Source: Pseudorhodobacter sp. E13 | GTDB taxonomy: Bacteria; Pseudomonadota; Alphaproteobacteria; Rhodobacterales; Rhodobacteraceae | Direction: 5' to 3' | Assembly: GCF_003991405.1 (NCBI RefSeq) | Contig: NZ_RPEN01000141.1 | Coordinates: forward strand, 1-47,927 | DNA: 47,927 nucleotides | In this document: in pieces, positions 1 through 27,084 of the stretch | Position numbering within the stretch: position 1 is the first letter of the stretch | How the letters are laid out: the number at the start of each line of letters is the position of its first letter | The notes under the pieces: generated by a model | The model's input: only the letters and a program-made list of their open reading frames with translations | What the model was told of the DNA's origin: nothing | Databases searched by the model: none | Position numbers and translations under genes: made by a program

Positions 1-359
1 AACCTATAAACTTCAACGTTATCAGCGGCTTCTCCATCAGCTTCCGGCAACACCGCGTCTGTACCATTCCAATGCCATGGGAAGGCCATGCTTGATTGGG
101 TATTAATATCGATTTCACTACCGAGTTGTAGGATGCAATCTATACTAAAACCTTGGCTTAGGTCACGCATCCAATAGTCCGTCTCAGACACGGTCATCGA
201 TGTGGCAGGCGAAAACAGCAAGTTGATCGCATCCAGAACGGTAGTTTTTCCTGTATCTCCCCCTCCGAGGATCAAATTCATGCCCGCTGCGGGTTGCCAA
301 ACCAAGTCTTCGATTCCACGGAATTTGGATATCGAAAGTTTCAGTATTTTTGAAGGCAT
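1..359 (-). CDS. OLD/RecF-like AAA ATPase, N-terminal part (runs off the left edge)
   Basis: This frame is open from an ATG at 359 down to base 1, so 119 codons are visible. The start reads MPSKILKLSISKFRGIEDL and is followed by a Walker A motif GGGDTGKTT at residues 32-40, where a canonical P-loop has GxxxxGKT. This FRGI...N-L-I-L-G-G...GKT layout is typical of OLD-family and RecF/SMC-type ATPases that bind DNA and often carry a C-terminal TOPRIM nuclease. Walker B and any nuclease domain lie outside the window. The upstream context (cagggtgtacc before the ATG) gives a weak Shine-Dalgarno. OLD-type ATPases are common in phage-defence islands, which fits the integrase-bounded region, but the exact subfamily cannot be set from the N-terminus. 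Confidence 0.8.
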   Translation of the reverse strand, partial: MPSKILKLSISKFRGIEDLVWQPAAGMNLILGGGDTGKTTVLDAINLLFSPATSMTVSETDYWMRDLSQGFSIDCILQLGSEIDINTQSSMAFPWHWNGTDAVLPEADGEAADNVEVYR

Positions 360-467
360 GGTACACCCTGATTTTAGATAAGACACATCATTTTTGCAAG
401 TACGCCAGGCGCTTAGGTACATCAAACCAAACCAAGAGCATGCATGGCAAATGAAATATTTTCGATC

Positions 468-545
468 CTACGGTAAATCGACCTCTATCCCAGTCCTGAA
501 CTGGGTCTCGAAGGTGTTCCATCCGTTGGACAGGTGCCCAGCCAT
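468..545 (-). pseudogene. 25-codon remnant carrying the AGxLS-WNTF tail
   Basis: A short reading frame of 25 codons encodes MAGHLSNGWNTFE and then about a dozen further residues. An in-frame TAA lies immediately upstream of its ATG, so it is unlikely to be a free-standing gene. The same C-terminal motif ends two complete proteins in this window: the 337-aa coiled-coil protein (AGQLSREWNTF) and the serine recombinase at 41044-42771 (AGELVSEWNTF). It therefore looks like the cut-off 3' end of a relative of one of these, or an old frameshifted extension of the neighbouring gene at 604-1239. Confidence 0.5.
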
Positions 546-603
546 AGCCTTTTAAGTCGCTCGCAGAGCGGTTTTTTGGCGATTTTGACGCGTGAAATTC
601 GTG

Positions 604-1239
604 TTACTTTCGCCCTCGTTTTCGGTTCAATCGTCCTTGTTTTCGCTGGGCTTTCAGTTGTTTAGCGGCTAATCGCGTAGAGGCTTGTGCCAGGCTTGCT
701 CGCGTGGACTTTTGAAAATCAGAGCTTGATCTAACCTGGTCGAGCTGAACCACGTTTTGGCTATCGGGCGTACCTTGCGCGGCTTTGGACGTGATGTGGT
801 CAAAAATTTCAGAGGGTTCGAGACCGGTTTTGAACAGGTTGAAAAACAAACCAGCTTGAGGCGAGATTAGGGGTTTGTGGTCATAGAGTTGGGCTATCAC
901 GCTGACAAGATTCTGCAACGCCTCGTAATTCACATAATTATTCGCGTCGATAAGATCGTAGGCACTCAAGTCGAAGCCTGGTGCACAAGTCTGAATGGGG
1001 CGGGTGTTTGTAGCCCCTTGGGTGTCCGTGCGGCGGGCAAATTCTTGCCATTGCATGGGGGTAGTGAGCCACAACTGAACATAGTCAAAATAGGCAGCTA
1101 AGGGGAAGGCATCAAATCCTTCCTTTTGAGCCGAAGCAGGCAGAAGCCGAGAGAGCTGAACCCCTTGATCACCCTTGCGCACGTTGACAAAAATCTCCCC
1201 GGAGGGACCAGGATAGGCACCGAAGGCAGCGGTTTGCAT
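604..1239 (-). CDS. hypothetical protein with strongly basic C-terminus
   Basis: I do not recognise this 211-residue protein. It lacks a signal peptide or membrane segment. The middle is mixed alpha/beta in character (around DLSAYDLIDANNYVNYEAL), and the last 30 residues are very basic, ending in KQGRLNRKRGRK, which would suit nucleic-acid binding. It is the third gene of the leftward run that starts with a small signal-peptide-like protein (2881-3525) and continues with a 496-residue coiled-coil protein (1329-2819), so it is probably co-transcribed with them. No counterpart is present in the second cassette at 6904-9555. Confidence 0.65.
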   Translation of the reverse strand: MQTAAFGAYPGPSGEIFVNVRKGDQGVQLSRLLPASAQKEGFDAFPLAAYFDYVQLWLTTPMQWQEFARRTDTQGATNTRPIQTCAPGFDLSAYDLIDANNYVNYEALQNLVSVIAQLYDHKPLISPQAGLFFNLFKTGLEPSEIFDHITSKAAQGTPDSQNVVQLDQVRSSSDFQKSTRASLAQASTRLAAKQLKAQRKQGRLNRKRGRK

Positions 1240-1328
1240 GAAAGAGGGGAGTAGTTCGTCTCAATTATGGCGGAGATCACGTCAACCGACAAATCGGTAG
1301 GCAAGTTTTGGCCGCTCCTGATCGTTTG

Positions 1329-2819
1329 CTAAGCGGCACTGCGGCTGAAGTTTTCTTCCCCAGTCCACAAACCAAGTCGATTAGCCTCGACCATTGTTGC
1401 AAATACATCCCAGTTAAAATCCCCGCTGTCGTCTATAATGCCTTGGCGTCGATAGTCGGCGCGCATCTGGTCAGGGTTCACATCACCGATAACGGCATCC
1501 CCCTTAGAGTTCTGAAACTGCATTAAGTAGGGAATGCGATCGAGATCACTTTGATCGAGAAGTTCACCGTCATGGCCTGCGAGACCCCCAAAGAAAATCT
1601 GGCACAAACGCTGTGTGCGATTGAAATCATCCGGCATACGCACATCAAGCACGCCGCCGCCTCGTTCTAACATGTTTCGACCCGGGTACATCATTTCAGC
1701 CATATTTACGTCGTGCAACTGGCTCATCATCTGTCCTGCTAGCCCATACATGGCCATATCTTCGGCTGTGGCATTATCAGGCAGGATGACGGTAAAGCTG
1801 CCGACTTCTTCATCAAAACGCATCGCTCGATCGCCTTGATCTGTGAGCCCGATCGCTTGCCCCGCACGTATCTCTTCGAATTCACCGGGTTGTAAAAAAA
1901 TAGGTTCTTCACGCAGTTCGCCCGTTTCTGGGTCACGCACCATACGAGTACCGACGCCTTGTTCAAACACCTCGGTCATTTCCGAGCCGGTGGTAACTTC
2001 TAGTGGGCGGCGTTCAATACCCAAGCTAGCGGCAATGGCTTCCTGCGTGGCCTGTGTCACCCCAGAAGGGAGTTGGCTATTGGGACTATCGAAAATGAAC
2101 GCCCGTGCAAATCGCACTGGGTCGGGCACGCCTTGGCTCATGTCGAGCTGATTGATGCGTTGACGAACCAAGGGCGCGTCTTGCGGAACCTGATCAGCAA
2201 TAGCGATGATTTGGCTGAAGGACTGCAGGCGGGCTTTTTCCGATGCGGGCACCCGTTCATCAGCAATTAAGCGCTGAATCTTCTCGGTATTTGGTAGTCC
2301 GGTCAATTCGTTAACGGCCTCTTGGTAAGAAACTTCCGTGGCTTTAACGGCAGCCGTTTCGGCGGCTTCAGCTTGTTCTAACCTTGCTTGAGAAGCCTCG
2401 GTTTGCGTTTCTTCAGCTTGGCGCTGCGCTCGCCGCTCTCGCCGTTGAACCCCACGTACAACAATTTCTGCCAGTTCAGATTGAGTTTCACTTTCCCCCA
2501 ATACGTAGTTGGGTTCCACCGTTTGAATCCGTGTTTGGTGCTCGGCCAAAATGTCGGTAGCCAGTTCGGCGTTTTCATCGCACGGCTCAAGGCCACAGTA
2601 ATTCCAGTCAGTCTGAACGGCGAGTAAAATATCTGCCCGAGTTTTTTCGGGTTCTTCAGCCGCTACATGGGCGGCTTCAGCTTGTTGTCGAGCCGTGCGT
2701 GAAGCGTCGGCAGCCGCTACGACACTCTCTAGTGGGGGAGTAGCTTCAGCGGCTCTGGGAGCCGATTGCGCTCGAAGCTCCAAGCCGCCAAATGGATTAT
2801 CGGCACCACCTAAAGGCAT
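1329..2819 (-). CDS. large cassette protein: N-terminal coiled coil plus unknown globular domain
   Basis: This 496-residue protein has an Ala/Glu/Gln-rich first half (roughly residues 20-60 and 125-165) that should form coiled coils, and a non-repetitive second half (about 190-496) with an acidic, globular look. No catalytic motif is recognisable and there is no signal peptide. It lies 61 bp downstream of the small signal-peptide-like gene at 2881-3525, and its position matches that of the 337-residue coiled-coil protein (6904-7917) in the paralogous cassette, so the two may do equivalent jobs. The C-terminus (FNWDVFATM...) is only loosely like the WNTF tail. Scaffold, effector or structural roles are all possible; I assign none. 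Confidence 0.7.
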   Translation of the reverse strand: MPLGGADNPFGGLELRAQSAPRAAEATPPLESVVAAADASRTARQQAEAAHVAAEEPEKTRADILLAVQTDWNYCGLEPCDENAELATDILAEHQTRIQTVEPNYVLGESETQSELAEIVVRGVQRRERRAQRQAEETQTEASQARLEQAEAAETAAVKATEVSYQEAVNELTGLPNTEKIQRLIADERVPASEKARLQSFSQIIAIADQVPQDAPLVRQRINQLDMSQGVPDPVRFARAFIFDSPNSQLPSGVTQATQEAIAASLGIERRPLEVTTGSEMTEVFEQGVGTRMVRDPETGELREEPIFLQPGEFEEIRAGQAIGLTDQGDRAMRFDEEVGSFTVILPDNATAEDMAMYGLAGQMMSQLHDVNMAEMMYPGRNMLERGGGVLDVRMPDDFNRTQRLCQIFFGGLAGHDGELLDQSDLDRIPYLMQFQNSKGDAVIGDVNPDQMRADYRRQGIIDDSGDFNWDVFATMVEANRLGLWTGEENFSRSAA

Positions 2820-2880
2820 GGGAAATAGTTAATATTCTCCACATTTTACCACAAAAAACGGTCTTCGGCAAACCTGCCTA

Positions 2881-3525
2881 TTAGTTGAGCCCGACTTCGG
2901 CACGAGCGCCATTGATGATACTGGTAGTGATCGCGGAAATTCTCGCTTCTGCGGCTGCTTGTTGTGCGTTAAGCGCGGCTATACGTGTTTGGCTGGCGGC
3001 CATTTCCCCAGCATGACGCATAGAGCCTTGAAGCTCTTCGTTGCAAAACATCTCTCCTGTGCGGTATAAATTAACATTCTCTGACGGGTCGACGCGCCCG
3101 TTTCCGTTTTTATCAACAACGGCAAGTTCTTCGGCAATACAGGCTGAATAATTGGCCTGAATTTCCTGAAAAGTGGTGGGGTCAATGCCGAGAGGGTATT
3201 GCCCAGGAGGATAGATTTCGAGCAACACACGCTCTCCAATCTGTGTTACATACGCTCCAACGTCACCAGCTCCACATTCTTCAGAAATTCCGTCACCGAA
3301 ATATTGGGTAAGTTCGTCAGCTCGCCCTCTATGGACCCGACCTTGATCGTCAAAAATGTAGGCCATGTTTTGCGGTGTAAGCTCGGTTTCTAACACTTCA
3401 CCATTAGCAATTGGAGCGCAGTAATCAGCGAATTCACCTGCGTCAGCTCGATCTGGCATGGCAGCCACAGCAGCGCCGATTGCAAGCGCCCCTCCAAAGC
3501 CGGTACCAAGTTTTCCAAAACCCAT
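2881..3525 (-). CDS. small cassette protein with signal-like N-terminus and EF-hand loop
   Basis: The start was placed at the ATG at 3525. Longer readings run back through the antisense of the recombinase gene and are not credible. The N-terminus MGFGKLGTGFGG plus an alanine-rich stretch ending RADA at residue 29 resembles a signal peptide, though it has little positive charge. Residues 138-149 (DKNGNGRVDPSE) match the canonical 12-residue EF-hand calcium loop, with D, N, N, V, D and E at the expected positions. The paralogue at 8015-8752 shares the FGKL...GAA N-terminus but not the EF-hand. No clear ribosome binding site precedes the ATG. The product is probably exported and calcium-responsive, with unknown function. 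Confidence 0.7.
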   Translation of the reverse strand: MGFGKLGTGFGGALAIGAAVAAMPDRADAGEFADYCAPIANGEVLETELTPQNMAYIFDDQGRVHRGRADELTQYFGDGISEECGAGDVGAYVTQIGERVLLEIYPPGQYPLGIDPTTFQEIQANYSACIAEELAVVDKNGNGRVDPSENVNLYRTGEMFCNEELQGSMRHAGEMAASQTRIAALNAQQAAAEARISAITTSIINGARAEVGLN

Positions 3526-3577
3526 TTTTGAGATAACGTTATAGTTAACTCTATTTTCTATCCAATTGGTGCTTTTT

Positions 3578-3636
3578 GTCAAACTTTCTTGACAGAAAAA
3601 AACTTGACGTAAGGCGTTTTTGACCAGTCTGATGCC
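3578..3636. promoter_or_regulatory. 59-bp TTGAC-rich block, cassette 1 copy
   Basis: The block lies between recombinase gene 1 and the small-protein gene. On the plus strand it contains one GTCAA word and three direct TTGAC words at about 15-bp spacing, then TTTGACCAGTC. A 59-bp block with the same layout occurs at 8802-8860, in the same place in cassette 2. The leftward TTGACA (complement of the first GTCAA region), followed 16 bp later by TAGAAA, also makes a plausible sigma-70 promoter for the small-protein gene. The block could be an operator, an accessory binding site for the recombinase, or both. Confidence 0.55.
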
Positions 3637-3686
3637 TCCACGTTCCGCTGATTTATTGCGATAGAGCGGTAAAAAGTGGGTTAACA

Positions 3687-4340
3687 TCAAAGTGGCTTTT
3701 CGCCAAAGCCGCGCATCAACGAATGCCGTAAGGCGGCTACTTCCGCCTTGGCTTGGGTGATACCCAAATACTCGACGGTGTTGCCGATCGACTTGTGGCC
3801 CAGCAATCGGGAAATCAGAGCGATATCTTCGCCCGCCCAATACATGTGTGCGGGTTTGCTGCGTCGGATCGAGTGACTGGAAAATTCTGATGGGTCGTGT
3901 CCCAGTTCTCTCGCCCAGTTTTTGATTATCTCCGCGTAGTGTGGGCGCGAGATCGGTGGGGCATCGGTCGGCTTGCTGCGGGTGAACAGGTAATGCGCTG
4001 GTTGTTTGCCGCTGACCGAGATCCAGCGCTCTAGATAGTAGCGGGTGGCAGGGGTGAGCACCGGCTGGACGATTGTTTGGGTTTTGCGCTGCCGACGAGC
4101 GATCATGGTCCGAACTGGTCCAGTAGAGTTGCGCACCTGCCAGACCTGTGTGGCGAGTAGATCGCTGGCCCTTAGCATCGTGTCCAAGGCGAATGACAGC
4201 AGCGCCAGATCGTGCCAGTTGGTTGCAACCACTAGTTTGGCTTCGATCTGGGCCAGTTCTTCCGCGCTGAAAGCCCTCTTCTGGCCAACGATATGACCGC
4301 GATTCCAGGCCTGCTTTTTTTGTGAGCGGATCGACCGCAT
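3687..4340 (-). CDS. short single-domain tyrosine recombinase (cassette 1)
   Basis: This 217-residue protein consists almost entirely of the tyrosine-recombinase catalytic domain. The active-site set is visible: Arg57 (MLRASDLL), Lys86 (RRQRKTQ), His156 and Arg159 (SSHSIRR), His182 (LGHKSI) and nucleophile Tyr191 (EYLGI). It lacks the usual N-terminal core-binding domain, which gives it the size of the FimB/FimE inversion recombinases. The N-terminus (AWNRGHIVGQK) matches a widespread family of roughly 200-residue proteobacterial integrases. A second copy lies at 8905-9555 and is colinear with it residue for residue. The start is 22 bp from inverted-repeat site A, one of a pair 130 bp apart, so its likely substrate is the segment just upstream. 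No good Shine-Dalgarno is seen. Confidence 0.88.
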   Translation of the reverse strand: MRSIRSQKKQAWNRGHIVGQKRAFSAEELAQIEAKLVVATNWHDLALLSFALDTMLRASDLLATQVWQVRNSTGPVRTMIARRQRKTQTIVQPVLTPATRYYLERWISVSGKQPAHYLFTRSKPTDAPPISRPHYAEIIKNWARELGHDPSEFSSHSIRRSKPAHMYWAGEDIALISRLLGHKSIGNTVEYLGITQAKAEVAALRHSLMRGFGEKPL

Positions 4341-4361
4341 GAGATGAAGGGGTTAGAGTTT

Positions 4362-4514
4362 CGCTTTCGCCAAAAGCGAAGGTATTCTGAGCCGATACAC
4401 CCGGAGGGCAACCGCTTAGCATTGGCTCCGGAACCGGAGGCTCGACCATGTTACCAGAAGAAACGACGCAAAAACAGCCTGCTAAGGGTTTCGCTTTTGG
4501 CGAAAGCAAAGGTC
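4362..4514. repeat. paired inverted sites A and B: candidate invertible segment, cassette 1
   Basis: Site A begins at 4362 with CGCTTTCGCCAAAAGCGA and site B at 4492 with CGCTTTTGGCGAAAGCA, exactly 130 bp apart. Bases 4363-4380 and 4490-4507 are an exact 18-bp inverted repeat. Each site is itself built of two arms (CGCTTT / AAAGCG) around an asymmetric core of about six bases, the usual form of a tyrosine-recombinase crossover site. Both sites are followed by AAGGT. The 109 bp between the repeats encode nothing obvious and contain a CTCCGG/CCGGAG inverted repeat. The segment lies between recombinase 1 and the 3' end of the ParE gene. Alternative hairpin-terminator roles are possible. Confidence 0.65.
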
Positions 4515-4551
4515 AAATTATGACACCAAGCTGGGCTTGAGGTAAACGGAA

Positions 4552-4869
4552 TTACTCATCGTCGGTCAAATCGGCTAAACGCGCTGTTTGGTGCATTCGT
4601 TCGTGCAAGATTGCCATTATCCCGATGCGCCCATCATCAAGTTGTTTCCAGTAAATGTAGTGGTGTTCGTAACGGGTAACCCAAGCCTTGATTTCAAATT
4701 CGGTCGGCACAGGTCGCCACAAAACCTCTTTCGAAACAATGGCCTCGAAGCGAGCAAATAGACCCGACAGATATTTATCTGCCTGTTCGTCCCCCCATTT
4801 TTCTGTCGTGTAAGCGTACAAATCGTCGATGGCAGCGTTTGCCGAAGCCTCAATAAAGTAGGACTTCAT
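4552..4869 (-). CDS. parE: ParE/RelE-superfamily toxin
   Basis: This 105-residue protein has the ParE pattern: an N-terminal helix-rich stretch (AAIDDLYAYTTEKWGDEQA), a central strand region around WVTRYEHHYIYWK, and a C-terminal I-LHERMH strand. ParE toxins act on DNA gyrase, and related RelE-fold toxins cut mRNA; the ParD-type partner makes gyrase the more likely target. Its ATG overlaps the stop of the upstream antitoxin gene by four bases, the standard coupling in parDE operons. The 3' end lies 38 bp from inverted site B of cassette 1. Confidence 0.85.
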   Translation of the reverse strand: MKSYFIEASANAAIDDLYAYTTEKWGDEQADKYLSGLFARFEAIVSKEVLWRPVPTEFEIKAWVTRYEHHYIYWKQLDDGRIGIMAILHERMHQTARLADLTDDE

Positions 4870-5129
4870 GCGGTTCGTTTTTTGTATCGCGCCTTAACGT
4901 CCGCCAGACTCGTTTCGACATAAGCCTCATCTGGCTGTGCGAAGGCATCTTGCAAGGTCGCTTTTAGCTTGGTGAAGGCGCGCTGTTCTTCTCGCTCCCG
5001 GTCCCGGCGGATCAGGTCTCGCACATACTCGCTGGCGTTGTCGTAGTCTCCCTCCGCGCCCACGCGCGTGGTGACAAACTCAGTCAAGGGGGTCGTCAGC
5101 CGAACAGACAAGTTCATAGGTTTGGACAT
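4866..5129 (-). CDS. parD: ParD-like ribbon-helix-helix antitoxin
   Basis: This 87-residue protein begins with a ribbon-helix-helix DNA-binding segment (MNLSVRLTTPLTEFV, then YDNASEYVRDLIRRD). It ends with a charged, probably disordered tail that would wrap the toxin. It is first in the operon, ahead of the overlapping parE gene. ParD proteins usually repress their own promoter; that promoter should lie at about 5130-5200. Together with parE it is a likely stabilisation module for this island. Confidence 0.85.
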   Translation of the reverse strand: MSKPMNLSVRLTTPLTEFVTTRVGAEGDYDNASEYVRDLIRRDREREEQRAFTKLKATLQDAFAQPDEAYVETSLADVKARYKKRTA

Positions 5130-5200
5130 AAAAAGTTGCTCCTCGTCCAGATTATACAGGAATATCCAGTCAAAGCAAGGTTTTCAACGGTCAAACGTAT

Positions 5201-5692
5201 CTATTTGAGTGACTTTTCAAAGACTACGCGATCTTTTCCTTTACCCTTTAAGTCACGCGTAACCCAAAGATCATTTTCTTGGTAGTCCGCAGGTGAATTT
5301 ACAAAACCTAGTCTCCGCCAAAGCGCTATCGCATTACTATTCGCCGCCTCCGAGGTGAGCCACATTTTATTGTATCCATGTTCTCTTACAGCAAGCTCGA
5401 GATGCTCCATCAGAACCTTGCCTACCCCAGTCCCTCTGAACTTTGAAGAAACGGCAACATCTTGAATATAGCAATCACCACTGTTGGTCACTTGATTCAA
5501 TACGGCAACAACTACACCCGCGATCTCTCCAGATATCTCGGCAACCAAACAGGTCTCCGAAAAAAAACGACTATAAAGCCAATAGTCCGACAAAGTTCGA
5601 GCAGACACAAACGGGCCAGCCTCGGAGATCAAGTCTCTAACTTCCTGAATGTCATCTTGCAACAAGCTGCGAATTTTCACTTTTTCGGTCAT
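5201..5692 (-). CDS. GNAT-family N-acetyltransferase
   Basis: This 163-residue protein has the GNAT order of motifs: an acceptor-side N-terminus (YWLYSRFFSETCLVAE), the central strand and the acetyl-CoA loop (IQDVAVSSKFRGTGVGKVLM, where R/Q-x-x-G-x-G/A reads RGTGVG), then the C-terminal LWRRLGF strand. The stretch around the first motif somewhat resembles the diaminobutyrate acetyltransferase EctA, but no ectoine genes are present. It starts 4 bp after the stop of the HTH-barrel fusion gene, so the two are co-transcribed and probably act together. The substrate is unknown; small-molecule or protein acetylation are both possible. Confidence 0.85.
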   Translation of the reverse strand: MTEKVKIRSLLQDDIQEVRDLISEAGPFVSARTLSDYWLYSRFFSETCLVAEISGEIAGVVVAVLNQVTNSGDCYIQDVAVSSKFRGTGVGKVLMEHLELAVREHGYNKMWLTSEAANSNAIALWRRLGFVNSPADYQENDLWVTRDLKGKGKDRVVFEKSLK

Positions 5693-5696
5693 TTTT

Positions 5697-6725
5697 TTAA
5701 GTCCTGAGAATTCGTTTTATTCTTCGAATCGTGTCTGCTGGGGTTGGGGAATTTAAAATGGATGAGCCCACAATCACAACATTCCACCTTTGATCCAATG
5801 CTAGCGCAACTTGTGTGGCTGTAAAGCCTCCGGATATGGCCAATGGTATAGTAAAGTCAGCTGGAAGCGATTTTAATATTTCCATAATGTCGATAAAAAT
5901 ATTCGATGAATCTAAATTGCGAATAATGGCAACCATATCAGCTCCATAAGCTTCACTTTCAGCCATCAGCTTTGCTATGTTTTCGTGTGAAAGAATTGCC
6001 ACCGATATGCCAACCTTATGTTTTCTTGCGCTGTCAATGGCACGAGAGATCCTTTTTTCATTTGACAATCCAATTACCTGAACGATGTCTGCTCCCGAAT
6101 TTGCTGCAAGCTGAATTTGTTGCTCAATCCAGTCAGAAGATGCAAATTCGGCGACGATTGGAATACCTGGGGCGTAATTCTTCACATCACGTATTATTCC
6201 CATGCCATATTTTTGAAAAACGGGATCTCCAATTTCTAAGAAGTCCACGTTTTCTTTCGCAGCGATTAAGGCGAATTTCTTGAGCTCTACACGATTAGCT
6301 ACATCAAGAGCGAACTGCAGACGCCTCCCGCTAATTTTGTCACAAAAAATTTGCGGATCCACCGGATGAAAGAACGGACCTTGTATCGGTTCGTGTTCGT
6401 CTAGCTTAATCGGAGCATAGCACTCCGACAGTTCTGCATCACTTATCTCTAAAGCAATCACCAAACTATCTATCGTTTTCTGATGAGGACTATGAATGCG
6501 ACCATTCTCAATTTGAGAGATTTTCGCTTTTCCTCCAACGTTACCGAATGCAAGCGCGGCTAAATCCTGCTGCGACAGACCCTCTATACCACGCTTCTTC
6601 CTCACCAAACGTCCGAAGTTTACACCAAATGGAACCTGCAGAACCCAAACTTTCCTAAACTTTTGAGAACGTAAACCCGTCCCTTGCCAGCCTACATTAC
6701 AAACACACGCAACAAAAGGCCACAC
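5697..6725 (-). CDS. XRE-type HTH fused to a hexulose-phosphate-synthase-like TIM barrel
   Basis: The 342-residue protein has a Cro/C1-type helix-turn-helix at about residues 48-92 (LSQQDLAALAF...ISQIENGR). A barrel of the 3-hexulose-6-phosphate synthase / OMP decarboxylase superfamily follows from about 134 to the end. Family landmarks are LQFALDVAN (135-144), FLEIGDPV (162-169), the SGADIVQVIG strand, the ISGG loop and VVIVGSS near the end. The catalytic D-x-K-x-x-D of active members is replaced by E193-F-A-S-S-D198, so the lysine is missing and enzymatic activity is doubtful. A ligand-sensing regulator is more likely. The first 30 or so residues are odd (MWPFVACVCN...), and a later non-ATG start is possible. 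It is coupled to the downstream GNAT gene. Confidence 0.82.
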   Translation of the reverse strand: MWPFVACVCNVGWQGTGLRSQKFRKVWVLQVPFGVNFGRLVRKKRGIEGLSQQDLAALAFGNVGGKAKISQIENGRIHSPHQKTIDSLVIALEISDAELSECYAPIKLDEHEPIQGPFFHPVDPQIFCDKISGRRLQFALDVANRVELKKFALIAAKENVDFLEIGDPVFQKYGMGIIRDVKNYAPGIPIVAEFASSDWIEQQIQLAANSGADIVQVIGLSNEKRISRAIDSARKHKVGISVAILSHENIAKLMAESEAYGADMVAIIRNLDSSNIFIDIMEILKSLPADFTIPLAISGGFTATQVALALDQRWNVVIVGSSILNSPTPADTIRRIKRILRT

Positions 6726-6743
6726 ACAAAAAGGGGTAAAAGA

Positions 6744-6845
6744 ATGAATTATAACAATGACCTAATCACCTTTCTCAATGGTATCGTTATAGGGCTGGTC
6801 ACAAACGCACTATGGATGATCATCATAGAGTCGATCCTCAACTAA
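6744..6845 (+). CDS. 33-residue single-span membrane peptide
   Basis: The frame encodes MNYNNDLITF followed by a hydrophobic span (about residues 11-29, including GIVIGLVTNALWMIII) and a short ESILN tail. AAAAAGGGG lies 8-14 bp before the ATG and serves as a strong Shine-Dalgarno. The gene is divergent from the HTH-barrel gene, with 18 bp between start codons, and a strong stem-loop follows at 6861. A very short hydrophobic peptide next to an HTH regulator could be a type I toxin-like or small regulatory membrane protein; nothing in the sequence settles which. Confidence 0.55.
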   Translation: MNYNNDLITFLNGIVIGLVTNALWMIIIESILN

Positions 6846-6860
6846 GAGCGGACTCACTTC

Positions 6861-6896
6861 TCAGGACACAGGGCACTATGGTGGGCTGTGTCCTGA
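6861..6896. terminator. stem-loop terminator between convergent genes
   Basis: A perfect 11-bp stem (TCAGGACACAG at 6861-6871 and CTGTGTCCTGA at 6886-6896) encloses a 14-base loop. It sits between the rightward 33-codon gene and the leftward coiled-coil gene ending at 6904, where a bidirectional terminator is expected. The U-tract is poor on both sides, so termination may be incomplete. Confidence 0.6.
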
Positions 6897-6903
6897 TTGT
6901 AAC

Positions 6904-7917
6904 TCACGATAAACCCTCCTCGTGACCAGTCATACAGAGCGCTTTGAAGGTGTTCCATTCTCTGGACAGCTGCCCAGCCACTTTCGCCCGAACCTCACGG
7001 CGACGATCCTCGTCGGCGATCCCGGCGTCGATGCGTGCAAACACGTCGCGATAGACGTCGGCTTTGCTTTGGGAAGCGAGGTTCAACGTCACGGTTTCGG
7101 TCAGGTTACCGCCAAAAACCTGTTGCACTTCTTGCGGTGTGAAGACGGTTTGGAGCGCGGCGAGTTCGGCTTCATACTTAGCAAAATGAGTTTCGGCCAA
7201 GTCTCGTTGCGCTTTGGTTGGCAGCTGTTCCGTTGCTCGCTGCCTGTATTCATGAAGTTTCCCCCGAGGTAATTCTCGAATAAAATTCTGAACTTCAGCC
7301 GAATTAGCATCGGCTCTTTCAGCTTCTGCATCAGCATGAGCCGTGGCGGTTTCACCACGAGCTGTTTCAGCATCAGCATGAGCCGTGGCGGCATCCCGTT
7401 CAGTTGTCACATCCGACAATGTTTTATTCAAACCATCGTTCCGATGTGCGCGCACTGCATTGGCGGATTGTTCGCTTTCAATCGCCGCGTCAATATCCGC
7501 CTCGCGGGTTTCAACGGCGGTTTCACCCTCCATCGCGGTTTCTAAAGTCGCTTGTTTGACGGCGACGGCCTCGGTGACTGGTGCTTCAGGGGCTTGGCTT
7601 GATTGCCCGAGAGCTTCGCACAAAATTCCGACGCAACGCTCGCGAATACGCGGCGGCATAGGTAGCGGGCGACTGAACGCCACCTGCAAATGGCGGTTTT
7701 CCAGCAAAGTGGCTGGATCAGTTTCAGAAAGAGGCAGGTTTTCTTCGGCGCATACCAACTGCAACCGGCCTTCGGGCGTTTGGTTCAAATCGTCGGCACA
7801 CTCACTGGCCAACTCGCTACAAGCACTCTGAGTTTCGGCGCCTACTTCGGCTTGCAGCCGTGTTTTCTCAGCAGCGCTGAGTTCGGGAAAATCGGACGCG
7901 GAGAAACGCTCGGACAT
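6904..7917 (-). CDS. coiled-coil cassette protein with AGQLS-EWNTF tail (cassette 2)
   Basis: This 337-residue protein has a helical N-terminal region with four cysteines, a central low-complexity coiled coil (about residues 165-215) built on DAETARGETATAHA-type repeats, and a C-terminal helical domain. It ends in VAGQLSREWNTFKALC..., a tail shared with the serine recombinase at 41044-42771 and with the remnant at 468-545. The coiled-coil segment is nearly identical, at DNA level, to part of the upstream gene 8015-8752. It has no signal peptide. It is the last gene of cassette 2, 97 bp downstream of that gene. Function unknown; a cytoplasmic partner of the exported-looking protein is one possibility. 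Confidence 0.72.
   Translation of the reverse strand: MSERFSASDFPELSAAEKTRLQAEVGAETQSACSELASECADDLNQTPEGRLQLVCAEENLPLSETDPATLLENRHLQVAFSRPLPMPPRIRERCVGILCEALGQSSQAPEAPVTEAVAVKQATLETAMEGETAVETREADIDAAIESEQSANAVRAHRNDGLNKTLSDVTTERDAATAHADAETARGETATAHADAEAERADANSAEVQNFIRELPRGKLHEYRQRATEQLPTKAQRDLAETHFAKYEAELAALQTVFTPQEVQQVFGGNLTETVTLNLASQSKADVYRDVFARIDAGIADEDRRREVRAKVAGQLSREWNTFKALCMTGHEEGLS
7298..7391. repeat. coiled-coil coding repeat shared with 8067-8160 (copy 1)
   Basis: This stretch begins with a 31-bp segment (7298-7328, starting GCCGAATTAGCATCGG) identical to 8067-8097. It then continues as short tandem units (CATCAGCATGAGCCGTGG, TTTCACCACGAGC) that occur in different number and order in the neighbouring gene. 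Both copies encode ADAE/TARGE coiled-coil repeats. Repeat exchange or gene conversion between the two adjacent genes is the simplest explanation. Confidence 0.8.
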
Positions 7918-8014
7918 TTAGATAAGTTCTTGTGATTATATCACAAAAAGGCACTTCTACCAAGTTTTCACCAGTTGCTTTGAGACAGCGCTGAGCTGCA
8001 TGGCTACGTATGGC

Positions 8015-8752
8015 TTAGTTTGTGGCCGCGTCTTCTGCTGCTACGCGTTGCAGCGCGGCCAAAACAGCCGAATTAGCATCGGCTCTTTCAGCTTCTGTTT
8101 CACCACGAGCTGTTTCAGCATCAGCATGAGCCGTGGCGGTTTCACCACGAGCCGTTTCTGATTCCAACTCAGTTGTCACATCCGAGATAGTTTTATCCAA
8201 ATCAGCGGCTTCTGCGTCGAGACGCTGACCGCTGGCTTGTTCGCTTTCAAGAACCTCTTCTTTGTTAGCAACGCGGGTTTCAGCGGCAATTCGCCGTTCA
8301 CGGACTTCGGCGATCTGCACATCAAGCGCCGCTAACTGCACCGCCTCAGTTCCCGCTGCACAGGTTTGTTGGCTGGCATCGTCTGGAGCGTAATCGCAAA
8401 ATACGGGTTCAGCGATCAATTCGGCTGCTGTCAGGCCGATGTCATCTTCCAGAGGCTGAAGACGTTGATGGGTTTCGCGCACCACGCTATCTAGTTGGGC
8501 GCGGGTCAGGGTAACAATTGCTTGTGCGACGCAAATATCGCGCGCTTCGCCACCGGCGATGCAGGATTCTGCTTTTTCAATCGTATCGCCAACCAAAATC
8601 TGAGCGTTCGGAACACCATTAACATTGACGGCCACCTTTTCGCCGTTGCTAAGGGTGAAGGCGACGTCCGTTTCGGCTTTCGCCCCCTCTGGAGTGCCTG
8701 CTAGTGCGGCACCTACCGCGAGAACGCCAGCCAGTTTGCCAAATCCCGCCAT
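8015..8752 (-). CDS. small cassette protein with signal-like N-terminus and coiled coil (cassette 2)
   Basis: The start was placed at the ATG at 8752, because longer readings run through antisense of the recombinase. The 245-residue product begins MAGFGKLAGVLAVGAALAG with a probable cleavage after AKA at residue 26. The cassette 1 protein at 2881-3525 begins in the same style (FGKL...GAA). A middle region with four cysteines (ESCIAGGEARDICV, FCDYA, QTCAAG) suggests an oxidising, extracytoplasmic location. The C-terminal 80 residues are a coiled coil of ETARGETATAHADAE repeats shared with the downstream gene. The function is unknown. Confidence 0.7.
   Translation of the reverse strand: MAGFGKLAGVLAVGAALAGTPEGAKAETDVAFTLSNGEKVAVNVNGVPNAQILVGDTIEKAESCIAGGEARDICVAQAIVTLTRAQLDSVVRETHQRLQPLEDDIGLTAAELIAEPVFCDYAPDDASQQTCAAGTEAVQLAALDVQIAEVRERRIAAETRVANKEEVLESEQASGQRLDAEAADLDKTISDVTTELESETARGETATAHADAETARGETEAERADANSAVLAALQRVAAEDAATN
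8067..8160. repeat. coiled-coil coding repeat shared with 7298-7391 (copy 2)
   Basis: This is the partner of the repeat at 7298-7391: the first 31 bp are identical, then the CATGAGCCGTGG and TTTCACCACGAGC units are rearranged. It codes for the C-terminal coiled coil of the gene at 8015-8752. A further shared stretch (CAGTTGTCACATCCGA) follows at about 8170 here and 7401 in the other copy. Confidence 0.8.
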
Positions 8753-8801
8753 GAAAAGAAGGGTTAATACAACCCTATTATCTAATGAAATCATAGGTTT
8801 C

Positions 8802-8860
8802 GTCAAATTTTGTTGACAAAAAACTTTTGACTTAGGGGCAATTTGACCAGTCAGAACGCC
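8802..8860. promoter_or_regulatory. 59-bp TTGAC-rich block, cassette 2 copy
   Basis: This is the counterpart of 3578-3636, of the same length and in the same place between recombinase and small-protein gene. It carries GTCAAA, then TTGACA, TTTTGAC and TTTGACCAGTC on the plus strand. GTCAAA at 8802 and TTTGAC further on form outer inverted arms, with an inner TTTTGT/ACAAAA palindrome. Conservation of the block while the rest of the intergenic region diverges argues for protein binding, by the recombinase or a regulator. Confidence 0.55.
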
Positions 8861-8904
8861 AAGCCAGTCGCGGCGCTTCTTGCGGCCTTGTGGCATTGTG
8901 CGGG

Positions 8905-9555
8905 TCATTTTCTTTTGGGATTGCCCCGCATCATCGGATGGCGCAATGCCGCCGTTTCGGCCTTGGCCTGCGTGATGCCCAAATACTCGATGGTGGCCGC
9001 AATCGACTTGTGCCCCAGCAGGCGCGAGATCAGGGCGATGTCCTCGCCGGCCCAATACATGTGCGCCGGTTTGCTGCGCCGGATGGAGTGGCTGGAAAAA
9101 GCGCCCGGTTCGTGCCCGAGCCAGGTCGCCCAGCCTTTGATCAGATCGGCATAGTGGCCGCGGGTGATCGGCTCGGCCTTCGCCTCCTTCGACCGGGTGA
9201 ACACAAAATCCTGCGGAGCCTTTCCGCTCACCCTCAGCCAGCGCTGCAGGTAGTCCCGCGTGGGCGGTGTCAGCACCGGATTGACGATGTGGCGCGTCTT
9301 GCGTTGCCGCCGCGCAATCAGGGTGCGGATCGATCCGTTCGGATAGGCCACCTGCCAGACTTGCGTGGTCAGCAGATCGCTGGCGCGGAACATCGTGTCG
9401 AGCCCAAAGCTGAGCAGCGCCAGATCGTGCCAGTTCTCTTGCGCCAGCAGCATCGCCTCGATCTGGGCGATTTCCTCCAGCGCAAAGGCGCGTTTCTGCC
9501 CCGCCACCAGCCCCTTGTTCCAGGGCGCCCGAGAGCCGGAATTCGTCGTCGTCAT
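8905..9555 (-). CDS. short single-domain tyrosine recombinase (cassette 2)
   Basis: This 216-residue protein aligns without gaps to the recombinase at 3687-4340 through the catalytic domain: Arg57 (MFRASDLL), Lys86, His156 and Arg159 (SSHSIRR), His182 (LGHKSI) and Tyr191 (EYLGI). The long block SKPAHMYWAGEDIALISRLL is identical in both. Like its paralogue it lacks an N-terminal core-binding domain. Its ATG lies 22 bp from site C, the same distance as in cassette 1, and site D lies 130 bp beyond C. This matching spacing supports the sites as its substrates. It faces away from the 56-codon gene at 9743. Confidence 0.88.
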   Translation of the reverse strand: MTTTNSGSRAPWNKGLVAGQKRAFALEEIAQIEAMLLAQENWHDLALLSFGLDTMFRASDLLTTQVWQVAYPNGSIRTLIARRQRKTRHIVNPVLTPPTRDYLQRWLRVSGKAPQDFVFTRSKEAKAEPITRGHYADLIKGWATWLGHEPGAFSSHSIRRSKPAHMYWAGEDIALISRLLGHKSIAATIEYLGITQAKAETAALRHPMMRGNPKRK

Positions 9556-9576
9556 TCAGTGTGGCGACCGGTGTCC

Positions 9577-9735
9577 CGCTTTTTTCAAAAGCGAGGGTAT
9601 TTTGACAAAAAGGGATTTCTCACCAAGGGGCCTTGAGCCCGCTGATACTCCGGTCGAGCCACATGGTACATGAAGATTACGTTAAGAAACAGTCGCTTGC
9701 GCCCCTCGCTTCTGAAATTAGCAAGGGTATGGTGA
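9577..9735. repeat. paired inverted sites C and D: candidate invertible segment, cassette 2
   Basis: Site C starts at 9577 (CGCTTTTTTCAAAAGCG, then AGGGTATTTTGA). Site D starts at 9707 (CGCTTCTGAAATTAGC, then AAGGGTATGGTGA), exactly 130 bp later, as for A and B in cassette 1. Read as inverted repeats, 9578-9593 and the complement of 9707-9722 match at 13 of 16 bases, including the core TTTCA. The core differs from that of cassette 1 but is complementary within the pair. Part of the intervening DNA (CTCCGGTCGAGCCA...TGGTACATGAAG) resembles the cassette 1 segment. A rightward TTGACA lies inside at 9603, but no good -10 element follows it. Confidence 0.6.
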
Positions 9736-9742
9736 GCGCAAG

Positions 9743-9913
9743 ATGTTCGCAAAAGCCTATAGTTTCTCCGCCCATTCGGCCGTCACCATCATGACCGAAG
9801 CCCAACTGGCCGACCTGATCGAAGAACGGCGAGAGCGGGGAATGAGCGAAGAAACACTCGCGTTGTTCGAGGACTGGCATCGGGCACGGCTGGGTCAAGG
9901 GCGGAGCGAATGA
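9743..9913 (+). CDS. 56-residue hypothetical protein
   Basis: The frame encodes MFAKAYSFSAHS and then a helical, charged segment (MTEAQLADLIEERRERGM...LFEDWHRARLG). A weak GGTGAG precedes the start. It lies just outside site D, so inversion of the C-D segment could change its transcription. It is convergent with the gene ending at 9925. I do not recognise the family; the translated composition is typical of a real small protein. Confidence 0.5.
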   Translation: MFAKAYSFSAHSAVTIMTEAQLADLIEERRERGMSEETLALFEDWHRARLGQGRSE

Positions 9914-9924
9914 CCCACCAGCCC

Positions 9925-10539
9925 CTAACGCTCCAGATCCTCCCACTGTCGCGAGCGCAATGCCTGTCTGACGGTTTGCGCCTCTTGCCGGGAAACGCGA
10001 TTGCTCATGACCGCTTCGTCAATGTCGGCCTCAGAAAGGTGGCGCAGCAAAAAGCCCATACGCTGCTGCAAGCCTGTCATTTCCAGTTCAACGGCGCGGG
10101 GGTCGATCTTTTCGATCTGCGCCTCTTGCCAGCGGTTGAACCGCGCCCGAGCGGCAGCCAGTTGGCCGCGTGCGCGTTTGGCGGCGGTCACGGCCAGCAC
10201 CTGCCGTTCCTGTGCCACTTGCATCGCGCGTGTGTGCTCAGTCACTGCCCGTCGCATGTCCGACAAACGCTTGCGAGCTGGGCTTTGATACCCCCAAAGG
10301 CTCACCCCCGGTTCGTGCTTTTGCATTCGTGCCAACAGGTCCTCGGTCTCTGTGCGAGCCTGCAAGCGACGTGCATAGGCGTCACGGGCTTCCTCTTCGT
10401 TCTTGAGAATGCGTTCCACGTCACGTTCCACTCGGGCGATTTCGGCCTGTTTGTCGGACCATTGGCGGGATTGCGTCTCCAATCGCCGGAAATGCCCGTC
10501 CAGCGCCGCGTAGCACACCACCAAATCCGTTTTTGTCAT
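9925..10539 (-). CDS. coiled-coil hypothetical protein
   Basis: The start was placed at the ATG at 10539 (MTKTDLVVCY), because GGAGGT lies 6 bp upstream. A longer reading to 10737 would overlap the divergent excisionase gene. The 204-residue product is almost wholly helical, with Arg/Glu/Gln-rich heptads (WSDKQAEIARVERDVERIL, RARFNRWQEAQIEKID). It carries no catalytic motif, signal peptide or membrane span. It is divergent from the xis/int pair and may belong to the island core. Function unknown. Confidence 0.68.
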   Translation of the reverse strand: MTKTDLVVCYAALDGHFRRLETQSRQWSDKQAEIARVERDVERILKNEEEARDAYARRLQARTETEDLLARMQKHEPGVSLWGYQSPARKRLSDMRRAVTEHTRAMQVAQERQVLAVTAAKRARGQLAAARARFNRWQEAQIEKIDPRAVELEMTGLQQRMGFLLRHLSEADIDEAVMSNRVSRQEAQTVRQALRSRQWEDLER

Positions 10540-10697
10540 CGCCAGACCTCCGATCTGGGCGAGGCTAGAAGAATTGACCACATGCCTGTGAGGCGTGGGA
10601 GGCCACGTCTCTGGTTGGAAGCTCATATCCGGGTAGTTTGGCAACACGTTACTGAAAGGGGCCCGAGGGCTCCTCCCAAACACAGAAGAGGTCAAAC

Positions 10698-10976
10698 ATG
10701 CCGGAACGACCCTATACGCCGGACACACTTGCAGCACGTTGGCAGTGTTCTGCCGAAACCGTGCGCAATCTTATCAAACAAGGAAAACTGGAAGGCTTCC
10801 GTCTGGGACGCATGTTCCGCATCCCGGCGCAAGCCGTGGAGGAATATGAACAATGCCTGATCTCACCATTGGCCGATTGCGGGGCGGTTTCTGCGTCTCG
10901 TGGTACGAAGGCGGTAAACGTCGACGCTATCAGCTTGAGGCATGCTCCCGAAAGGAAGCCGAGGCCGAAGCGCTAG
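10698..10976 (+). CDS. xis: excisionase-like MerR/HTH_17 DNA-binding protein
   Basis: The first 55 residues are a winged helix-turn-helix of the excisionase type (YTPDTLAARWQCSAETVRNLI...LEGFRLGRMFRIP), which bends DNA at attachment sites. GAGG lies 7 bp before the ATG. The reading frame continues 41 codons past the start of the integrase gene, giving an unusually long 124-base overlap. The extra tail has no recognisable fold, and the family normally ends near VEEYE. In this position it should act as recombination directionality factor for the following integrase. Confidence 0.8.
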   Translation: MPERPYTPDTLAARWQCSAETVRNLIKQGKLEGFRLGRMFRIPAQAVEEYEQCLISPLADCGAVSASRGTKAVNVDAISLRHAPERKPRPKR

Positions 10977-11854
10977 ATCTGTTCAACCGGCATCGCAGCA
11001 TTGCCGGTGCGCTTACCGTCACCGATATCTGGCACGCCTATCGCGAACAGAAGGCTGGACGGCAAATCACCGAAAGAATGAAGTACAGCGGCAAGCCAGT
11101 ATTGGCGCATTTCGGTGCATTCCGACCGGATCAGATTTCGACCGAACTGTGCCGCGAGTATCACCGCAAACGTGAAGCCTTAGGTCGCCAACCCGGAACG
11201 GTGTGGACTGAACTCAGCCATCTGCGGATTGCGCTGAATTGGGCCGTCAAACAGCGTTTGGTCGAGTATACGCCGCCCATCGAACGTCCAACGCCACCGG
11301 CTCCGAAAGACCGCTACCTGACCCATGCGGAAATCGACCGGCTGCTGGCGACGAAGATGGAACCGCATATCCGGCTGGCCATCATATTGATGCTATCGAC
11401 GGCGGCGCGGGTGACGGCGGTGCTGGAACTTACCTGGGACCGGGTGGACCTGGATCGTGGACAAATCGACTTGCGGAAGAACGCCACCGGACCAAGGAAA
11501 GGCCGGGCGGTAGTTCCGATCAACGCTGGCTTGCGGGACGCTCTGCAAGAAGCCCAGCAAGCCGCGCTATCGGATCATGTCATCGAGTGGGCCGGCGGCC
11601 CGGTCAAGAGCATCAAAAAGGGCTTTGCCAGCGTGGCGACTCGCGCTGGTTTGCAAGGCGTTACGCCTCATGTGCTGCGGCATACCTGCGCCGTCCACAT
11701 GGCAGAGGGCGGTGTCCCGATGGCCGAGATCAGCCAGTATCTCGGCCATTCCAGCACCGACATCACTGCCCGGGTCTATGCGCGCTACAGCCCGCAACAC
11801 CTTTTGAAAGCTGCAGAAATTGTGGATTTCACGCGACCCAGAGTTGCCGTCTAG
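10853..11854 (+). CDS. int: tyrosine integrase of the tRNA-Pro island
   Basis: This 333-residue integrase has a SAM-like core-binding domain (about residues 50-145) followed by the catalytic domain. The active-site residues visible are Arg in STAARVTAVLEL, H-x-L-R in TPHVLRHTC, the LGHSS histidine, and Tyr in ARVYARYS. Its start is embedded in the end of the excisionase gene. The gene points toward the tRNA-Pro 3' fragment 54 bp downstream, as expected for an island integrase beside its attachment site. It is unrelated in layout to the two short recombinases of the cassettes. Confidence 0.93.
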   Translation: MPDLTIGRLRGGFCVSWYEGGKRRRYQLEACSRKEAEAEALDLFNRHRSIAGALTVTDIWHAYREQKAGRQITERMKYSGKPVLAHFGAFRPDQISTELCREYHRKREALGRQPGTVWTELSHLRIALNWAVKQRLVEYTPPIERPTPPAPKDRYLTHAEIDRLLATKMEPHIRLAIILMLSTAARVTAVLELTWDRVDLDRGQIDLRKNATGPRKGRAVVPINAGLRDALQEAQQAALSDHVIEWAGGPVKSIKKGFASVATRAGLQGVTPHVLRHTCAVHMAEGGVPMAEISQYLGHSSTDITARVYARYSPQHLLKAAEIVDFTRPRVAV

Positions 11855-11907
11855 GTTCGCCGAACCAAGGAATTCTGTTTTTCTCAAGGCTAAGTCCTTG
11901 ATTTTAC

Positions 11908-11952
11908 TGGTCGGAGTGAGAGGATTCGAACCTCCGGCCCCTGCCTCCCGAA
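11908..11952 (-). other. attachment site: 3' half of tRNA-Pro(CGG)
   Basis: Read on the minus strand the sequence runs from the anticodon loop TTCGGGA through the 3' anticodon stem GGCAG, the variable loop, the T-arm GGTTCGAATCC and the acceptor strand CACTCCG to ACCA. The 5' half of the tRNA is missing, so this is not a functional gene. It is the duplicated 3' segment left by integrase-mediated insertion into a tRNA-Pro gene, and it marks the integrase-proximal end of the left island. A perfect 10-bp inverted repeat (GCCTCCCGAA / TTCGGGAGGC, 11943-11968) spans its edge. Confidence 0.82.
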
Positions 11953-11968
11953 TTTGCGTTCGGGAGGC

Positions 11969-12403
11969 TAAGTTATTGATTTTTGGTCAAAGGAGCACTG
12001 TTTATTTCAGCCATATTCCCGGTTTGTTCACGGTATTTCGGTCTGTTTGGGTTCGCTGAACTTAAGAGCACTGATTTTGACCTTGAGAGACCTGTTTGTC
12101 GGTGAATGCGCCCAAAAGAGCCACAGACCCGAAAGACAGCGCTCTTAAGTTCATGGCGCTCGCGTCAACCCGGTTTTCTTCATAATTGGCTACGATGTTG
12201 CGAGGACACCGCGTGAAGCCAGAGAAAACTCATCACTTTGAACTCTCTCATCCCTGTAAGCCTTGCGAGACGAACTCAAGCTGTCCGGAACTCGTTACAC
12301 AGGTTCCCAAAATGCGAATTGAAATGCGCGGTGCGCACGTTGTCCATAGTGTTCAACCGTGGTAACAAATCTGGTAACGCATCTGTGAGTCGAGGCCATA
12401 TCT
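11969..12403. other. intergenic region upstream of the large exoprotein
   Basis: No convincing gene is present in these 435 bp. The region contains a perfect 12-bp inverted repeat (GAACTTAAGAGC at 12058-12069, GCTCTTAAGTTC at 12141-12152) with a 71-bp spacer. The promoter of the exoprotein gene is expected near the right end, but I see no strong sigma-70 consensus. It may include remnants from the island junction. Confidence 0.4.
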
Positions 12404-26951: not shown

Positions 26952-26984
26952 CCGGATACAGGAGAATGCTGTCTCCCCCTGTGA

Positions 26985-27040
26985 TCGAACGCGTTTCCTG
27001 TTCCATCCTGAATTCAATGGAACAAAACACGCTCTAGAAC
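26985..27040. repeat. palindromic intergenic repeat, copy 1
   Basis: The sequence TCGAACGCGTTTCCTGTTCCA...TGAATTCAATGGAACA...CGCTCTA is partly palindromic (TGTTCCAT / ATGGAACA around GAATTC). It recurs in opposite orientation at 29260-29312. It lies between the Sel1 gene and the second exoprotein gene, in the longer open frame of the latter. Similar GAGCG...GAATTC...CGCTC elements are common as repeats in alphaproteobacterial intergenic regions. Confidence 0.65.
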
Positions 27041-27084
27041 TTAGTCCCAAACGAGGGGCACGGGCACCAAACACAGCCATGGCA

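Follow-up and report, generated by a model that had tools for sequence, protein, structure and literature searches.

The window, i.e., the whole 47,927-nucleotide stretch of contig NZ_RPEN01000141.1 from Pseudorhodobacter sp. E13, harbors two copies of one arrangement, termed cassettes 1 and 2 (C1 and C2), in which a small tyrosine recombinase gene is preceded by a pair of inverted sites and followed by a gene designated as gene A (A2 in cassette 2), with genes B and C lying further behind in cassette 1 (Table 1). The sites of the second copy occupy positions 9575-9725, beside a recombinase gene of its own. Both cassette recombinases matched PF00589 (E 1.1e-19 and 5.9e-18), which places them among the tyrosine recombinases. 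The initial annotation had described the enzyme of cassette 1 as a protein lacking a core-binding domain, and only the catalytic domain was indeed found, at residues 38-193. R57, K86, H156, and R159 are invariant in an alignment of nine sequences, and H182 and Y191 are present wherever the sequence reaches; these six are taken by us to be the active-site residues. The small size and the missing core-binding domain are FimB/FimE-like traits, whereas the NCBIfam models of FimB/FimE-type invertases, NF007371 and NF007370, gave 21.2 of 222 and 20.7 of 221 bits, far below the cut-offs for tyrosine-type DNA invertases.

The name gene A is positional, because the copies are only 18-66% identical to the copy in the related locus L035. 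The gene behind each of the two recombinases of the window possesses a signal-peptide-like start, as judged by eye. The start of gene A is devoid of a Shine-Dalgarno sequence in 8/8 loci (duplex energy +0.3 to +3.8), and the energies are mixed at the starts of the recombinase gene (-5.0 to +3.0, mean -0.2, n = 10) and of the small far-side gene (-7.3 to +0.8, mean -2.4, n = 6). A promoter-like sequence of its own precedes gene A in six loci, found by scan for cassette 1 and by eye for the others, and is absent in L039 and L045. TTGTCAA and TTTGAC boxes are repeated around the promoter-like TTGAC...TAGAAAAT before gene A, at 3540-3610 (-) and 8780-8860 (-) in the window as well as upstream of gene A in L044, L035, L048, and L038, and might constitute an operator. 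No Pfam, PHROG, or NCBIfam match was obtained for genes A, B, and C, apart from gene A2, which gave a weak SMC coiled-coil hit far under the cut-off. The predicted fold of gene B (pLDDT 68.3) had no match at E <= 0.001 in the PDB or viral models, its weak matches to Microviridae pilot proteins having E values of 0.29 and 0.79.

The far side of cassette 1, the only one of the 11 compared sequences in which ParE was found, is occupied by a parE/GNAT region. A different small gene lies on the far side of six loci (cassette 2, L038, L039, L040, L044, and L048). Before any counts were made, L036, L041, and L048 (identical over 3609 bp) were merged as one locus, as were L006 with L044 and L007 with L045, and L049 was treated as a duplicate of L039 on the basis of its upstream 200 nt only.

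Table 1. Positions of the features of cassettes 1 and 2 in the window.
Feature	Position	Strand	Description
Gene C	604-1239	-	211 aa; basic C-terminus; no family found
Gene B	1329-2819	-	496 aa; no family found
Gene A	2881-3525	-	214 aa; N-terminus resembles a signal peptide by eye
-1 frame, stop-free over the recombinase gene to the end of gene A	2881-4340	-	Flipped leader would give a 513-aa ORF
Promoter-like TTGACA-18-GAAAAT before gene A	3553-3582	-	Promoter scan
Tyrosine recombinase, cassette 1	3687-4340	-	217 aa; PF00589 match; presumed active-site residues
Recombinase-proximal site, cassette 1	4360-4380	-	Arm, core TGGCG (4368-4372), arm
Segment between the two cores, which would flip	4373-4497	.	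Deduced from site positions and cores
Shine-Dalgarno GGAGG of the leader	4436-4440	+	7 nt before ATG; duplex energy -9.5 kcal/mol
Leader ORF, cassette 1	4448-4540	+	30 codons; present outward orientation; crosses the distal site
Distal site, cassette 1	4490-4510	+	Arm, same core TGGCG (4498-4502), arm
Gene A2	8015-8752	-	245 aa
Stop-free -1 frame, cassette 2, through gene A2	8015-9555	-	Flipped ORF would be 540 aa
Recombinase, cassette 2	8905-9555	-	216 aa; 70% identical to cassette 1 recombinase
Proximal site, cassette 2	9575-9595	-	Core TGAAA on the - strand (9583-9587)
Leader ORF, cassette 2	9663-9794	+	43 codons outward
Distal site, cassette 2	9705-9725	+	Core TGAAA (9713-9717)
Conserved small far-side gene, cassette 2	9743-9913	+	56 aa; leader ORF overlaps its start
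Integrase	10853-11854	+	333 aa; PF00589; follows cassette 2

Paired sites with matched cores

An exact 18-bp inverted repeat at 4363-4380 and 4490-4507, each copy of which was said to be divided into two arms around a core, had been pointed out in the initial annotation, and both statements were confirmed in the sequence. Each copy is composed of an arm, a 5-bp core, and an arm, and the two sites of cassette 1, TTCGCTTT-TGGCG-AAAGCGAA and TTCGCTTT-TGGCG-AAAGCAAA, are mutually inverted and 130 bp apart from center to center. With the flanks included, the pair consists of 28-nt arms with 86% complementarity located 109 nt apart, and it headed the list of inverted pairs for bases 1-20000. With uniform base frequencies, chance alone would produce about 6e-5 exact 18-bp pairs in inverted orientation within 200 bp per 20 kb. 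Besides the two known sites, four of the cassette 1 type with two mismatches were found in the genome of the strain, and the reversed control pattern also gave four.

Inverted pairs at a spacing of 129-130 bp were disclosed in nine loci (C1, C2, L006, L041, L037, L038, L039, L040, and L007), the cores of which are TGGCG, TGAAA, TGACA (twice), TGGAA (twice), TGAAG, TAGAA, and TTCAA. The core is equal within the locus in 9/9, which was matched by 1 of 200,000 permutations, a figure that overstates independence because the loci are related. Only core positions +1 to +4 displayed 9/9 agreement within loci versus 0.33-0.61 between them, and at the arm positions beside the core the agreement within loci was no greater than that between loci. 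A core-masked scan furnished a tenth pair in L047, where TGGCA is present in both sites and the arms differ, and two inverted sites with an identical exchange region were found in all ten two-site loci. Together with TGGCA and with TGGGA in the one-site locus L035, nine different cores are represented, which suggests that one recombinase family has several kinds of sites that exclude each other; because their cores differ, cassettes 1 and 2 should flip independently.

Since the cores are matched within loci and differ between them, the two sites of a locus would recombine with each other, and since they are inverted, the product should be an inversion rather than an excision. Matched cores are what repeated strand exchange, or selection for exchange, would produce, and what operators or terminators would not.

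A leader in the opposite orientation was observed in L035, where a 63-bp stretch of leader plus site matches L041 (87%), and a 61-bp stretch L039 (89%), in reverse orientation, with the recombinase aligning forward. In the proximal site of L035, the inner arm is of the far type and the outer arm of the proximal type, as a flip would give. The far site was not found within the 6.5 kb of this locus; beyond the exact site it contains one match with two mismatches, and two or more matches occurred in 14 of 200 shuffles. The switch of L035 is probably locked. As to the inverted alleles in relatives that had been suggested as a check on the original proposal, this one relative has a flipped leader but has lost its far site, and no allele pair with both orientations of one locus was encountered among the relatives. 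None of the eight other genomes of the genus carries a close relative (1/9, the strain itself), so that no allele of the cassette 1 locus could be compared. An exact-arm scan upstream of 27 distant recombinases, which was insensitive because the diverged pair of L007 was also missed, revealed five with one 9-11-bp inverted pair at other positions, probably by chance.

The proposal of a candidate invertible switch at this place thus gains support from cores that match within and differ between loci, from the tenth pair, and from the flipped leader of L035. Cassette 1 is very probably an inversion switch, the segment of which would be expected to flip in the source strain under catalysis by the cassette 1 recombinase.

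Leader ORF and the frame across the recombinase gene

The interior of the segment had been regarded as free of coding content, which proved to be wrong, as a Shine-Dalgarno motif and an ATG open the leader ORF there. Each of the 10 other loci examined has a counterpart, and most leaders resemble M.HE...KKQ.L..LAF..SKG. The Shine-Dalgarno duplex energy of the leader is between -2.9 and -9.5 kcal/mol in 10/10 loci (mean -5.0), with -6.9 in L047. The flipping part comprises about 20 codons, which in the present orientation read away from the recombinase, and the outward leaders stop after 25-72 codons. Of the previous suggestion that a promoter or terminator is turned between the recombinase and ParE sides, the turning itself was retained, while the element turned appears to be a translation start together with the initial codons of an ORF. 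The recognition of coding content in the interior led to the proposal of a flipping start codon, the ON frame of which would overlap the invertase gene.

When the flip was computed, the leader ATG entered the recombinase gene at frame offset 1 in 10/10 loci, and likewise in L035 as found. The frame is open to the end of gene A in 7/7 complete computed loci plus L035, that is, in eight loci. The computed flipped ORFs contain 513 (C1), 540 (C2), 451 (L006), 455 (L038), 339 (L039), 462 (L041), and 424 (L007) aa, and the 468-aa frame of L035 through to the end of gene A is actual sequence.

Not a single -1-frame stop was present in nine recombinase genes versus 52.8 expected when synonymous codons were shuffled within each gene (2.7-12.1 per gene), the interrupted copy of L040 being left out of the stop counts. 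A 96-codon remnant in L047, with 0 versus 1.5 expected and not significant alone, brings the stop-free loci to 10/10. The remaining alternative frame of the recombinase genes contains stops as expected. In 28 control genes, 496 -1-frame stops were counted versus 559.6 expected; none has zero, and a deficit at P < 0.05 was noted in 9/28. None of 26 distant recombinases has zero either (L025 was too short and was left out), and L008, L031, and L034 have 1-2 where 6-10 were expected. These deficits imply that part of the lack of stops is a more general effect; a mild general bias exists, and it falls short of the effect in the close recombinases. In terms of codon choice, T-ending codons account for 0/300 positions in the close recombinases where T makes a stop and 276/1157 elsewhere, and the corresponding figures are 168/1003 and 900/3180 in about 26 distant recombinases. 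As a separate observation, a relaxed form of the stop-free constraint may be wider, as in the distant recombinases L034, L008, and L031.

Past the stop of the recombinase, no stop interrupts this frame for 170 nt in 8/8 loci, with shuffle probabilities of 0.03-0.08 each in the six informative ones; L039 and L007 are uninformative because the stretch lies in or almost wholly in gene A. The gap from the recombinase to gene A measures 161, 152, 152, 152, 155, 155, 11, or -4 nt, and the differences are always multiples of three. In the unflipped state of 7/9 loci, the frame extends upstream of the recombinase for 40-79 nt before it closes, with no in-frame ATG or GTG on the way; in the exceptions, C1 and L006, it stays open as far as the segment and includes in-frame ATGs. 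A TTG occurs at -4 in L039, and internal ATG or GTG codons are found in the -1 frame of most loci.

A conserved protein in the -1 frame was considered and rejected, as the frame is open but its amino acids are not conserved. The agreement at fourfold-degenerate sites was 0.409 versus 0.358 expected at saturation for pairs of recombinases and 0.331 versus 0.275 for four integrases, and this similar excess indicates that the overlapping amino acids are under no added constraint. A frame kept free of stops without sequence conservation leads us to infer that the selected property would be that ribosomes pass from the leader into gene A, the start of which has no Shine-Dalgarno sequence.

Proposed switch and competing readings

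Cassette 1 is likely to be a self-contained phase switch of a probably integrative element, in which the translation start flips and the ON frame overlaps the invertase gene as far as gene A. In the proposed mechanism, the small tyrosine recombinase would exchange strands at the two inverted sites 130 bp apart, whereby the intervening segment would flip together with its ribosome-binding site, start codon, and about 20 codons. The present orientation would be OFF, with the leader reading outward through the far site to its early stop, while the flipped orientation would be ON, with the leader start joined to the -1 frame, which spans the full length of the recombinase gene and continues in register until gene A ends, presumably yielding a polypeptide of 339-540 aa. 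Inversion is well supported by the comparison of loci, which revealed the paired cores, the common architecture, and the open frame, and the ON product and the role of gene A are presumptive. In the ON state, reading of the recombinase gene in the wrong frame may damp recombinase synthesis. The mature part of gene A might be released from the long product, and signal-peptide cleavage inside it is a speculative route. Several observations weigh against this reading: no allele pair with both orientations of one locus was encountered, no promoter was called inside the segment, a promoter-like site just outside the far site points inward, the -1-frame amino acids lack conservation, some control genes and distant recombinases are also short of stops, C1 and L006 have an open frame with ATGs even in the unflipped state, start codons within the frame are common, and gene A is highly variable and has a promoter-like sequence of its own in six loci.

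We lean slightly toward the narrower claim that the ON output is written over the switch's own invertase gene, with ribosomes sent via the -1 frame into a likely exported neighbor protein. Making the target and misreading the invertase would then be one act, and the ON state could therefore be self-stabilizing. If true, the invertase gene is kept stop-free in two frames across its close family, and the design is compact and self-referring, as one RNA serves the target and the invertase in competition; it would then become testable how a second frame of full length stays open without amino-acid conservation.

A plain invertible promoter, by which the segment would direct transcription to the recombinase and gene A or to the far side with the leader and the open frame being incidental, would be favored by the same evidence for inversion (matched cores, tenth pair, and L035 flip), and AAAATACC beside the proximal site in most loci could, by eye, be part of a -10 box. 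This explanation is nevertheless unlikely, since it leaves both the complete lack of stops and the 0/300 at-risk T-ending codons unexplained, as well as the location of gene A, which is always in the -1 frame despite gaps of 161, 152, 155, 11, or -4 nt. Moreover, no promoter was called inside the cassette 1 segment within the promoter types covered by the scan. Three promoter-like sites were found in the cassette 1 region versus 1.1 expected: one before gene A, one on the other strand, and one at 4546-4517 (-), which is situated just outside the far site and points inward.

It is very improbable that the repeats are two recombinase binding sites for autoregulation or DNA looping without inversion. 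Their location just upstream of the recombinase gene and their fixed spacing would suit such a function; operators, however, need no matching core, yet the cores match in 10/10 loci while the arms drift, and the leader is flipped in L035. Still harder to accept are attachment sites of an integron-like or cassette-inserting system, which would accord with a recombinase gene diverging from an outward-reading start and with the parE/GNAT region that follows in cassette 1. The recombinase scored far under the cut-off of the integron integrase model TIGR02249 (19.2 of 265 bits), and sites in inverted orientation lead to inversion, not excision. In addition, a scan for sites of the cassette type in 11 sequences found pairs only at this place and no array among the best six matches per sequence, the lesser matches scoring <= 14.9. 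Although each site of cassette 1 alone is a short imperfect palindrome, transcription terminators, which had been named as the refuting alternative, or a chance repeat are scarcely credible, given that neither copy was called as a terminator-like site (one was called in the cassette 1 region, at 3710-3694, versus 1.7 expected) and that arms and spacing are conserved and cores matched in ten loci.

Known phase switches mostly move promoters or swap gene parts, and the unusual part of the flipping translation start proposed here would be that its ON frame runs over the invertase gene. The fimS element with FimB/FimE, which governs the type 1 fimbriae of E. coli, is a promoter-moving switch. It shares with the present locus a small tyrosine recombinase adjoining a short segment between inverted sites, whereas here a translation start would be moved and the recombinase gene would be overlapped by the ON frame. 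The fimS switch is listed in PMC11868660. In the vsa locus of Mycoplasma pulmonis (HvsR), according to PMC2268961, inversion sets a promoter, a ribosome binding site, and a coding start before another gene part. The likeness lies in a coding-region start brought in front of another gene part, while the vsa start covers hundreds of nucleotides and is joined to silent vsa genes, in contrast with about 20 codons and a joined frame overlapping the recombinase gene here.

Shufflons with Rci exchange C-terminal parts among several segments. Inversion by a tyrosine recombinase changes an ORF in both cases, but the present locus has one segment, which carries the N-terminal start. Rci and Komano 1987 are mentioned in PMC8138268. 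The more than two sites and several segments of a shufflon were not seen here, each locus having two sites among the best six matches per sequence. Intragenic and other invertons, i.e., short flipping segments touching coding sequence, were reportedly described by Chanin et al. in 2024, a study cited in PMC11868660, and the present segment resembles them in touching coding sequence; none of those invertons is known to us to lie over the gene of its own recombinase. Searches of the open-licence literature brought up no paper describing a system of this kind, an absence that carries little weight.

Distribution of the loci and other contents of the window

Close relatives of the recombinase are rare. 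At E <= 1e-45, the 295 genomes of the family, own included, yielded the own genome, G186 (75%), and G126 (47%), along with a partial copy in G053. Close relatives were present in 3/390 genomes of the order, own included, in 1/385 of the class, which is the own genome, and in 2/33 of one other genus. Six loci were derived from genome_contigs, two of them assigned to Rhodobacteraceae, one to Amylibacter, and the others under broader names. Distant recombinases of similar size are common, occurring in 75/295 family genomes at E <= 1e-20, own included. No copies were retrieved from viral contigs by protein search, alignment, and two DNA patterns; plasmids and phages afforded only matches below 60% identity, and positions 4700-6313 of L035 had no DNA match in plasmids.

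Integrases related to that of L038, which consists of DUF6538 and PF00589 (domains tested on L038 only), adjoin tRNA-Ser in L038, tRNA-Thr in L039, tRNA-Phe in L044, and tRNA-Thr in L048, and an integrase remnant adjoins tRNA-Phe in L047. In L035, L037, L040, L045, L046, and the window, the search gave no tRNA. Owing to these integrases beside tRNAs, an integrative element is likely for the group of loci and is presumed by extension for the window.

Several other features of the window were recorded. A single ORF at 5697-6725 (-) joins a helix-turn-helix domain to an OMP-decarboxylase-like domain. A repeat with 72% identity links 470-544 with 6906-6980, the latter copy being the end of a 337-aa gene (6904-7917), the middle of which is like gene A2 (44% over 120 aa). 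Beside the 333-aa integrase lies a 3151-aa ORF at 12404-21859 (+), and a 22-nt inverted repeat (86%; 12057-12078 and 12132-12153) is located between the two. Further along, 22805-24502 (-) and 24507-27137 (-) encode a two-partner secretion pair consisting of a ShlB-type transporter and a TPS-domain protein.
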